From Phycisphaeraceae bacterium (lineage in GTDB: Bacteria > Planctomycetota > Phycisphaerae > Phycisphaerales > Phycisphaeraceae), in assembly GCA_019634195.1 (NCBI GenBank), contig JAHQVV010000114.1:1-40925 (forward strand): a stretch of 40,925 nt of DNA. Direction: 5' to 3'. The stretch's first letter is position 1; each line of letters opens with the position of its first letter. Under the pieces are notes generated by a model. That model searched no databases. It was not told the origin of the DNA and was given only the letters and a program-made list of their open reading frames with translations. Position numbers and translations under genes: made by a program. Of the stretch, positions 37,585 through 40,925 are shown piece after piece.

Positions 37585-39084
37585 TCATCTCGGCGGCGAG
37601 GCTTCGTCCACCGTGCCCTGGGACCGCTGGGCAGCCGGGCCAGAGGCCGTTGCGATGGGCCTGTTCAGCGGGAACCGGAGGTAGAACGTTGTCCCCTCGG
37701 GGCCGCTGCTAAACGAGATCGCGCCGCCCATCTTGTCGACGTGCCGGCGGACCATGTAGAGGCCAAGCCCGGCACCCTGGACCGACGTTTCGTGGAACCG
37801 GTTGAACATGCCAAAGACGTTGTCGTGCTGGTCTTCGGGGATGCCCAGGCCGTTGTCCTGGATGTGGATGAAGAAGTCGCTGAGATCGCTGAAGCTCCTC
37901 ATGACGACGAATCGCTCGGCCTTGTCGGGGTCGCTGTATTTTACCGCGTTGGCGATCAGGTTTTCCAGTGCCTGGGTCAGCCGCGCGGCTTGGACTATAA
38001 AGTCGCCGCTATGAGAGAACGCCGACTCAAACCGCACGTTTTTCTCTTCGATGTGATGGCCATACTTGATGAGGAAGTTGTCCACGAAGCCCTGGAAATC
38101 GAACGCGGATGCCTCCTCGGACTGGAGGTCGGTTTTGGTCAGCGTCAGCATCATCTCGACAAGCGACCGGAGCTGCGAGGCGACCGCGTTGATCTTCTGT
38201 GTGTTTTCTTGTGCCTCGTCGTATTGCGCATCGATGATGTCTTCCCGCACGCATTCGGCGAGGCCGGCGATCGTGATCAAAGGCGTCTTGAGGTCGTGCG
38301 AGGTGCGGTAGGCAAACTCTTTGAGCTCTTCGGTTTTTTCCTGCAGGGCGATATCGCTTTGACGCCGATGGGTGATATCCACGATCGAACTGATGACGAA
38401 AAGCTCGTCATTTGTTTTCATCGGCTGGAGCCCGATCTCGACGGGGAACTTCGAGCCGTCCTTGCGTTGCCCGAAGAGTTCTCGGCCGATCCCCATGGCC
38501 CGTGGTTTAGGGTCGCTGATAAAGTTTTTGATGAAGCCGGGGTGGTGTGCCCTGAACTCTTCCGGGACGAGCGTCTCGATGGGCTGGTCGGCCAATTCGT
38601 TCTTGGTGTAGCCGAACATCTGTTCGATACGCTGGTTGGTCAGCACGATCGTCCCCTGGGAATTGATCATGAGCATGCCGTTGGGCGCGGCTTCGAAGGC
38701 TGAGCTGAAGCGTTCGCGTTCTGCGACGCGCTGGGTCAGATCGATAATCGAACTGAGCACGAGCGTGCGGCCGTCGGCTTGGATCGGGTTCAGGCCGACC
38801 TCGACGGGGAACTGCGAGCCGTCTTTTTTCGTGCCGAAGAGGTCGCGTCCCCTGCCCATCTGCCGTGGGATCGGCGCATCGAAGTAGGACTGGACCAGTT
38901 TGGGGTGATTGGGCCTTACGCTTTGAGGGATCAGCACCTCGATCGGCTGACCCGCCAGCTCGCCCGGGTCGTAACCAAACAGGTTCTCCGCGTCGCGATT
39001 AACCAGTTCGATCCGGCTATCGGGCCCGACCAGGATCATCGCGACCGGGCTGTTCTCGAAGATCTGCTTAAACAGTGTGCTCAA
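37585..39084 (-). CDS. PAS-PAS sensor histidine kinase
   Basis: 499 residues, soluble. Two similar PAS domains (about 5-115 and 125-240), each ending with DLFGTKKDGSQFPVEVGLNP / ELFGQRKDGSKFPVEIGLQP, look like an internal duplication. A HisKA domain follows with His263 in TSHDLKTPLITI, then HATPase_c: N box LENLIANAVKYSD, G1 DNGLGIP and G2 GAGLGLYMVRR. The TTG start at 39084 is chosen because AAGGA lies 6 nt upstream; a TTG at 39099 is an alternative. It overlaps the response-regulator gene by 17 bp, so translation is coupled. The signal is unknown; no heme- or flavin-binding signature is certain in the PAS domains. Confidence 0.9.
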   Translation of the reverse strand: MSTLFKQIFENSPVAMILVGPDSRIELVNRDAENLFGYDPGELAGQPIEVLIPQSVRPNHPKLVQSYFDAPIPRQMGRGRDLFGTKKDGSQFPVEVGLNPIQADGRTLVLSSIIDLTQRVAERERFSSAFEAAPNGMLMINSQGTIVLTNQRIEQMFGYTKNELADQPIETLVPEEFRAHHPGFIKNFISDPKPRAMGIGRELFGQRKDGSKFPVEIGLQPMKTNDELFVISSIVDITHRRQSDIALQEKTEELKEFAYRTSHDLKTPLITIAGLAECVREDIIDAQYDEAQENTQKINAVASQLRSLVEMMLTLTKTDLQSEEASAFDFQGFVDNFLIKYGHHIEEKNVRFESAFSHSGDFIVQAARLTQALENLIANAVKYSDPDKAERFVVMRSFSDLSDFFIHIQDNGLGIPEDQHDNVFGMFNRFHETSVQGAGLGLYMVRRHVDKMGGAISFSSGPEGTTFYLRFPLNRPIATASGPAAQRSQGTVDEASPPR

Positions 39085-39499
39085 TGAGGATCCTTTCAAG
39101 CTCTTTCCTCATCTCGCTCGCAGCTTGTTTGACCAGGTACTCCGTCACCAGGCTCTGCTGTTCAAATCGGGCCTGATCTTTGGGATCGGATGAAGACGTC
39201 AAGACGACAACTTTCTTGATCGCTTGAAGGCGTGGTTCCGTGCTCTGCCTTTCGATCAGCGTATCAATGAACGCAAAGCCATCCATCACGGGCATGTTGA
39301 GGTCGGTGAATAAGATCTCGGGCAGCTGTGCGTCACCATCTTCATCAAGCATCTTTTCGATCTGATCGATCGCATCCTGCCCGTTGATCGCTTCAACGAT
39401 ATCCGAGACCAGATTCGTTCTGTTTGCAACACGCCGTACCAGGTATAGAAAATGCTCATCATCATCGACAAACATGACTTTAACTACTTTGGCCACCAT
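39068..39499 (-). CDS. stand-alone response regulator receiver protein
   Basis: 143 residues, a single REC domain with no output domain. Acidic pocket VDDDEH (residues 12-14), phospho-acceptor Asp66 in LFTDLNMPVMDGF, Thr/Ser in VVVLTSSSD and Lys in YLVKQAAS (the usual K-P dipeptide is K-Q here). It resembles the Rcp1-like single-domain regulators that pass phosphate to or from bacteriophytochrome-type kinases. It is encoded immediately before, and overlapping, the PAS-PAS kinase, its likely partner. The ATG at 39499 is preferred; a TTG at 39514 also fits. A TATGAT-like hexamer on the minus strand near 39556 may be its -10. Confidence 0.9.
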   Translation of the reverse strand: MVAKVVKVMFVDDDEHFLYLVRRVANRTNLVSDIVEAINGQDAIDQIEKMLDEDGDAQLPEILFTDLNMPVMDGFAFIDTLIERQSTEPRLQAIKKVVVLTSSSDPKDQARFEQQSLVTEYLVKQAASEMRKELERILIEHTV

Positions 39500-39626
39500 A
39501 GATTCTGCTCTCAAAAAAAACGTAACGAGGAATTGCTGACCGTATATCGGGAGTCATCATATCGTAGCGGATCAAGACCAGCATCACGCCAGTAGAAAAC
39601 GAATTGACCGGATGATGCGTTGTGGG

Positions 39627-40271
39627 TTAATGCGGTCCCATGACGGGTTTGAGTAGGGTGTCTGCGATACCCGCCTTCTCGAAGGCCTGGGATCGTCGTC
39701 TGCAGGCGCCGCAGGCCTGGCAGGGGGTCTCGCCGGGGCGCGAGCACGACCAGGCCAGGGAGAAGTCGACGCCGAGCTGCCCGCCGAGCTCAATGACTTG
39801 TTGGTCGCTCATCTCGGCGAGCGGGGTCTCGATGCACGGCGAGGACTCGGTCTCGTTTTGCGCGAGGTGTTCGCAGAGGACGGCCTGCTCGGTGGCCTGG
39901 GCGCCCTGGGTCGCGTCGCCGTTGACGGAGATGGGCCAGACCACGGCCTCGGCTTGTTGGTAACGGGCCTCGGCGATGGCGGCGAGCAGCAGCTGCGGCC
40001 GGGTGAGCTGGCCAAGCGGGCCGCCGTCGGGCGCTCGGCCGTAGCCGTGCCCGAAGAGGTGGGGGATGGCCAGCTCGGTGACACGGGTGATCTTCAGGGC
40101 GTGGGCCTGTTTTCGCATGAAGTTGCGGCGGGTGAGCCTGGCGTCTCGGCCGTCGTCGATGTGGACGAGGGTGAGCCGCGGCGCGGGCTGATCGCTGAGC
40201 AGCAGCGCCGAGGCGACCAGCGAGCGGACCCCGCCGTTGTTCATCACAACTAAGTGGCTTTTACGTTCCAT
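39627..40271 (-). CDS. QueC-like protein with altered PP-loop
   Basis: 214 residues related to 7-cyano-7-deazaguanine synthase. The C-terminal zinc site is intact: Cys176, Cys184, Cys187, Cys190 (WSCSRPGETPCQACGACRRR), followed by the QueC-type ending SQAFEKAGI. The overall order (ALLLS...TLVHIDDG, HALKITRV, ELAIPHL) also fits. The N-terminal ATP-binding PP-loop, normally SGGxDS, reads NNGGVRS, so the SGG and the Asp are gone. It is probably a diverged paralogue with another role, or an enzyme with a changed mechanism. The start is uncertain: a 19-bp tandem duplication repeats the start codon, and ATG 40271 is the one in frame. No other queuosine genes nearby. Confidence 0.75.
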   Translation of the reverse strand: MERKSHLVVMNNGGVRSLVASALLLSDQPAPRLTLVHIDDGRDARLTRRNFMRKQAHALKITRVTELAIPHLFGHGYGRAPDGGPLGQLTRPQLLLAAIAEARYQQAEAVVWPISVNGDATQGAQATEQAVLCEHLAQNETESSPCIETPLAEMSDQQVIELGGQLGVDFSLAWSCSRPGETPCQACGACRRRSQAFEKAGIADTLLKPVMGPH

Positions 40272-40395: not shown

Positions 40396-40925
40396 ATGGC
40401 GATCCTCATCTTCGAACACGACGACCTGGACTCCTCCCAACGCCTGGGCCAGACCCTGGCCGATCACGGGCACAAGCTCGATGTCCGGCTGCTGCACAAG
40501 GGCGACGACCTCCCGCCGGACCTGGACAACGTGGACGGCGTCGTCAGCATGGGCGGGCCGCAGGACACGGACGAGGTCGATCAGCACCCGTGGATGGCCG
40601 GCGAGATCGCGATGATCAAAGAAGCCCACGAGCGCGGCATCCCCGTGCTCGGCGTCTGCCTCGGCGCGCAGCTGATCGCGGTCGCGCTCGGCGGTGAGGT
40701 GGCAAAGATGGAAACACCCGAGCTGGGCATGGCCCCCACGACGCTCTCGTTCTTCGGCAGCACCGACCCGATCCTCACCGGCCTGCCGTGGAACAGCGCC
40801 GCGATGCACGCCCACGGCTGCGAGGTCACCCAGTGCCCGCCCGGCGGCACGCCCGTGCCCCTCGCCTCGACCGATACGTGCAAGGCCCAGGCCTTCCGCG
40901 TCGGGCTGACGACCTACGGCTTGCA
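40396..40925 (+). CDS. class I glutamine amidotransferase-like protein (partial, runs off the window)
   Basis: 176 codons are visible, without a stop. GATase1 fold: ILIFEHDDLDSSQRLGQTL at the N-terminus, VDGVVSMGGPQD as the oxyanion strand, and the nucleophile Cys88 in VLGVCLGAQLIAVALGG. The downstream order (GEVAKM, AMHAHGCEV, ASTDTCKAQAFRVG) matches stand-alone GMP-synthase-like amidotransferases (YfeJ/PuuD-neighbourhood style), where the His-Glu part of the triad lies just beyond the end of this window. It probably hydrolyses glutamine or a gamma-glutamyl compound. No synthetase partner is visible. Confidence 0.88.
   Translation, partial: MAILIFEHDDLDSSQRLGQTLADHGHKLDVRLLHKGDDLPPDLDNVDGVVSMGGPQDTDEVDQHPWMAGEIAMIKEAHERGIPVLGVCLGAQLIAVALGGEVAKMETPELGMAPTTLSFFGSTDPILTGLPWNSAAMHAHGCEVTQCPPGGTPVPLASTDTCKAQAFRVGLTTYGL

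Follow-up and report, generated by a model that had tools for sequence, protein, structure and literature searches.

The window, i.e., the whole stretch of DNA that was analyzed (40,925 nucleotides), belongs to a Phycisphaeraceae bacterium whose genome amounts to 3.62 Mb in 246 contigs at 89.6% completeness. Close to one end of the window lies a gene for a small QueC-like protein, flanked upstream by a truncated amidotransferase gene. The features relevant to this analysis are as follows.

39627..40271, minus strand: QueC paralog of 214 aa, an ATG-started open reading frame with a predicted QueC fold, the zinc site kept, and the catalytic motifs replaced
39702..39746, minus strand: zinc-site cysteines 176, 184, 187, and 190 (C-x7-C-x2-C-x2-C), present in 28/28 aligned members from the order
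40221..40241, minus strand: loop NNGGVRS in place of SGGxDS (codons 11–17), read from the sequence; GGxRS in relatives
40396..40925, plus strand: divergent class-I glutamine amidotransferase whose gene runs into the contig end (Pfam PF00117 and neighborhood comparison)

A PAS-domain histidine kinase and a response regulator (37585–39514, minus strand) lie directly downstream of the paralog on the same strand. The three neighbors scanned in the window included no defense or deazapurine gene, in keeping with the first-pass annotation, which had seen no deazapurine genes nearby; the matches of this genome to QueC, QueD, and Tgt models fall on other contigs.

The Pfam QueC model (PF06508) matches the window protein over residues 140–200 only, with 49.9 bits, above the gathering cut-off of 22, and it also matches 18/18 aligned family members. 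The NCBIfam equivalog TIGR00364 gives 28.2 bits, far below its cut-off of 150.3, and the protein thus belongs to the QueC family at the level of Pfam and falls outside the equivalog. A second, canonical QueC is encoded in the same genome on contig C151 (252 bits), with SGGLDS, VPARN, and YPDC in place. The paralog is conserved across genera. The nearest named relative, from a Phycisphaeraceae metagenome bin, is 71% identical to the window protein, and all 17 loci in the scan for relatives are labeled Phycisphaeraceae, Phycisphaerae, Phycisphaera, Planctomycetes, or Planctomycetota.

Catalytic motifs and predicted fold

In the loop NNGGVRS, the Gly-Gly and the final Ser are retained, the first Ser has become Asn, and residue 16 is Arg where the QueC loop has Asp, so that the SGGxDS phosphate loop of canonical QueC is absent. 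The first-pass annotation was right that the Asp and the first Ser are lost, but it had also counted the Gly-Gly as missing and had confined the loss to the loop. The change is wider, as YxQxHxxE, VPxRN, and YPDC, the QueC motifs defined in the available text of PMC13329287, are all gone from the window protein too. Its statement that the four zinc cysteines are intact stands: residues 176, 184, 187, and 190 fit the QueC zinc motif, C(x)8CxxCxxC, with a C-x7-C spacing instead of the C-x8-C of QueC.

A motif alignment of 98 rows extends these observations to the relatives; 95 rows were counted (26 canonical and 69 paralog), and three odd rows were dropped. In motif columns read from this alignment at low identity, the loop Asp is found in 26/26 canonical rows vs 1/69 paralog rows, the other 68 having Arg (30), Asn (12), Ala (11), Pro (11), Lys (2), Gln (1), or His (1). 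Neither YPDC, nor VPxRN, nor the Arg and Asn of VPxRN together occur in any of the 69 paralog rows, and Arg occupies the VPxRN Arg column in just two. The four cysteines are present in all paralog rows except five of the eight in family f2, where the paralogs L177–L181 have lost the zinc cysteines as well.

The replacements follow a pattern in the 35 core rows, made up of the family of the window (f1) and its sister family (f6). QueC residues D15, Y35, Q37, E42, and K165 are changed to R, D, R, R, and D, respectively, each in 30/35 core rows, and the complete R-D-R-R-D set is found in 20/35; the counterparts in the window protein are Arg16, Asp40, Arg42, Arg48, and Asp156. The first loop Ser is more variable, being kept in 19/35 core relatives and replaced by Asn in seven. 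Canonical QueC has 47 invariant columns, of which 17 are kept at ≥80% and 27 are replaced, eight of the latter being fixed for one new residue at ≥80%; there is weak evidence (Fisher p 0.044) that conservation at the replaced positions exceeds that elsewhere.

AlphaFold2 was run on 18 sequences. The model of the window protein has a mean pLDDT of 89.0 and a pTM of 0.86, and its predicted fold is that of QueC: the best structural matches are QueC 3bl5 (Z 20.4), QueC 2pg3 (Z 19.7), Cap9 9nto (Z 19.5), and QatC 9y01 (Z 14.7), with Cap9 and QueC at the top ranks in Foldseek. The known positions in QueC would place the new residues in one pocket.

Distribution, descent, and selection in the Phycisphaerae

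We scanned 251 genomes of the order (at least 90% complete, with the window's own genome added) and found the paralog in 32 of the 34 genomes of family f1, the exceptions being G455 and G014. An earlier scan without a completeness filter had found it in 20/25 f1 genomes, the five lacking it being 51–90% complete. Of the 28 order members aligned, four were given a start that omits the loop; it is readable in the remaining 24 and lacks the Asp in every one of them. Within the order, the loops read therefore include no canonical PP-loop of the kind that would have pointed to a degenerating copy. Most loops in f1 and f6 have the form (S/N/G/A)GGxRS, and others are more changed (e.g., DGSLPA, NLGDLAG). 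The NNGGxRS pattern named in the first-pass annotation is one form of this wider consensus.

A PF06508 scan of 60 genomes of the class, together with the sequences of individual loci, revealed paralog homologs in f103, f106, f111, f112, and f113, bringing the total with f1–f6 to 11 families; families such as f7, f8, and f9 had no clear second PF06508 copy in the 60-genome scan. Loop sequences vary by family: xGSxNS in f106; SGGLNS, SGGLHS, or SGGLTS in f103; SGGINS in f111; SGGINS, TGGINS, TGGLNS, SGGLKS, and GGGIKG in f112; YGDLPS, for example, in f3; and DGSLAS, for example, in f2. The single f113 member (L166) retains SGGIDS, including the loop Asp. In an unrooted tree of 83 rows, whose bootstrap had not settled, a supported branch (98/94) has all 54 paralogs on one side and, on the other, three odd sequences together with the 26 canonical ones of types A and B. 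We also noted a second canonical QueC type in other classes of the same phylum (L072–L075, L077–L081, L083–L085, L087, and L088), with YGQRT-like, VPFRN, and YPDC motifs; it scores 89–107 bits against the paralog core profile, and the usual type scores lower, at 51–88 bits. The window gene is best explained as a member of an old QueC paralog lineage present in 11 families of its class, the Phycisphaerae.

The paralog gene is under purifying selection. Among the pairs listed, Nei-Gojobori dN/dS is 0.06–0.38 in 25 paralog pairs, which are not independent of one another, and 0.10–0.20 in the 10 canonical QueC pairs with unsaturated dS; dS is saturated in five further canonical pairs. Values in the genus of the window are somewhat raised, at 0.20–0.34 in the three pairs that include the window and as high as 0.38 for one pair of relatives. 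A nonfunctional, decaying copy would fit the lost active site and the loss of the zinc cysteines in part of f2, but it is hardly credible given this selection and the near-universal retention in f1, and we reject it. Retention in many families under purifying selection suggests a working protein instead of a dying copy. Together with the new residues at former catalytic positions, these results lend support to the first-pass suggestion of a neofunctionalized paralog.

Neighboring genes and independence from QueC

Neighborhoods were compared by BLAST clustering, and Pfam was used to name individual members. A relative of the amidotransferase lies within 5 kb of the paralog in 14 of the 23 f1 loci assessed, and the full-length copies that were read carry GxCLG and HFE, which we take to be the usual Cys and His-x-Glu of class-I amidotransferases. 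These data bear on the reading that the paralog remains an enzyme that uses ATP or nucleotides but has an altered loop and a novel substrate, like the re-purposed QueC proteins QatC and Cap9, with ammonia possibly coming from the amidotransferase in f1. Because the loop Gly-Gly and Ser are conserved in f1, nucleotide binding could still occur, and an altered enzyme is conceivable. Against it stand the replaced Asp, VPxRN, and YxQxHxxE residues, the loops found elsewhere in the lineage (such as the f2 and f3 forms given above), and the absence of the amidotransferase cluster both from every other family examined and, within the genus of the window, from G001 and G003, two of the three relatives there. 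We consider an altered enzyme unlikely, though well worth keeping in mind, and the amidotransferase is linked to the paralog by association only, as a candidate partner at most.

Other neighbors differ by lineage. An inositol-phosphatase-family gene is found near the paralog in f6 (4/4) and f5 (3/3), and a ribosomal protein L21 gene lies 3′ of it on the same strand in f3 (7/7) and f2 (2/7); the L21-adjacent loci are L180, L182–L186, and L188–L190, with Pfam naming for L182 only. An upstream dehydrogenase gene occurs in f103 (4/4), f106 (2/5), and f113 (1/1), and a Cu-oxidase_4 gene in f103 (4/4) and f113 (1/1). The dehydrogenase shared by f103, f106, and f113 and the Cu-oxidase_4 gene shared by f103 and f113 support common descent of these paralogs. 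We found no neighbor common to all paralog lineages, and the idea of an operon partner was rejected on that ground.

The co-occurrence of paralog and canonical QueC bears on the proposal that the paralog acts as a regulatory partner for QueC or the queuosine pathway. In f1 the proposal has some appeal: 31 of the 32 genomes with the paralog have two matches and one (G019) has three, which fits a canonical copy alongside, with the second match read in a minority of these genomes. Family f103 tells against it. Here, 15/16 genomes were matched at E ≤ 1e-7, and 12 of these 15 carry the paralog with no canonical QueC at that threshold, bar one short, weak match in G644; a canonical copy sits beside the paralog in the other three. 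All 15 f103 paralogs lack the loop Asp (12 Asn, 2 Thr, 1 His), YPDC, and VPxRN, all of which are present in the 3/3 canonical f103 copies. Similarly, the 40 genomes of f112, classed by score with a minority of the sequences read, include 11 with the weaker match only, five with a canonical-level match only, and 24 with both.

Pathway genes add less. The four f103 genomes tested (G620, G635, G641, and G644) match Tgt and TIGR00697, presumably the queuosine-precursor transporter family, and have no QueD match over the cut-off, which would possibly fit queuosine salvage. The QueD part is weak evidence because seven of the 12 genomes (out of 26) missing QueD over the cut-off have canonical-level QueC. 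TIGR00697 matches occur in 16/26 genomes regardless of their QueC, and the QueE model TIGR04508 is a poor probe, giving no match at 1e-10 in four QueC-bearing genomes (G000, G013, G026, and G028). The 12 f103 genomes with the paralog and no canonical QueC indicate that the paralog probably does not serve QueC and that the lineage does not depend on it. The proposal of a regulatory partner is thus improbable, and that of a helper of canonical QueC is weakened by the same genomes.

Interpretation and comparison with known QueC-fold proteins

The reading that we favor, with confidence barely above even, is a QueC-derived protein without ATP-dependent preQ0 chemistry that acts by binding a ligand or a partner; canonical QueC chemistry in the paralog is very unlikely. 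The paralog would no longer bind Mg-ATP or 7-carboxy-7-deazaguanine in the manner of QueC, and no preQ0 would be made. The zinc site, with zinc itself predicted from the cysteines, would hold the fold, and the rewired pocket (the five residues from Arg16 to Asp156 named above) may bind another ligand or a protein partner. Such a ligand would plausibly be anionic and bound without magnesium, and the protein would act as a non-catalytic sensor or adaptor. More specifically, and with much more doubt, the QueC fold may have been turned into a magnesium-free sensor of an anionic metabolite or nucleotide by charge rewiring of the pocket, without the ATP loop; in the sequence, Asp and Glu have each given way to Arg, and Lys and Tyr each to Asp.

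The lineage would be a defined pseudoenzyme candidate. In the available text of a 2026 survey of PF06508 (PMC13329287), all clusters treated in detail are reported to retain the ATP loop and this paralog group is not mentioned; our literature search listed no paper on the group. A long-lived lineage that has the fold and the zinc cysteines but neither the loop Asp nor the substrate motifs would be a counter-example to the kept loop, as far as that text goes. There is also a caution for annotation: the f103 paralogs score 89–150 bits against the Pfam QueC cut-off of 22 despite their missing catalytic motifs. With high scores, no motifs, and no canonical QueC in 12/15 genomes, pathway predictions there could be wrong, and we advise against naming such paralogs preQ0 synthases.

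Compared with QueC (PF06508), the paralog shares the fold (Z 20.4 to 3bl5), the four zinc cysteines, and the Gly-Gly and Ser of the loop; it differs in that the SGGxDS Asp and the motifs YxQxHxxE, VPxRN, and YPDC are replaced, as are the conserved Lys and the Tyr that follows the first Cys.

With Cap9 of type IV CBASS, it has in common a small QueC fold (Z 19.5) and the zinc site. According to the portion of PMC13329287 available to us, Cap9 retains SGGxDS, has variant forms of the substrate motifs, and adjoins a CD-NTase gene. The loop and the substrate motifs are changed in the paralog, which lacks the SGGxDS of Cap9, and its three scanned neighbors comprise the histidine kinase, the response regulator, and the amidotransferase, with no CD-NTase before the contig ends upstream. 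A role in an anti-phage defense system like those of Cap9 or QatC finds some encouragement in the PDB sequence search, which matched Cap9 alone at E ≤ 0.01, in a weak match of a PADLOC model named QueC to residues 134–195 (29.4 bits), and in a weak QatC match of the f103 relative L170 (17.3 bits). It is nevertheless very improbable: almost every genome of its family has the paralog, phages and plasmids have no match covering 80% of the window protein, the window protein has no QatC match at E ≤ 1, and the SGGxDS that Cap9 and QatC keep, by the same partial source, is changed. A defense gene has little support from the QatC, phage, and plasmid searches. Viral origin was rejected separately, as none of 18 pattern stretches in viral_contigs encodes a relative.

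QatC of qatABCD, as described in the available part of PMC13329287, has N- and C-terminal extensions, for a length of about 400 aa, and is encoded in a defense operon, unlike the 214-aa window protein, which is short of QatC size and has no match to the QatC profile at E ≤ 1. QatC also retains and requires SGGxDS, and the loop Ser, Asp, and Ser of its structure contact the β/γ phosphates while Arg233 and Phe237 contact the adenine, as far as the accessible text of PMC13279940 describes; we infer that QatC Arg233 corresponds to the Arg of VPxRN. Like QatC, the paralog has replaced the QueC substrate residues while keeping the zinc site and the fold (Z 14.7).
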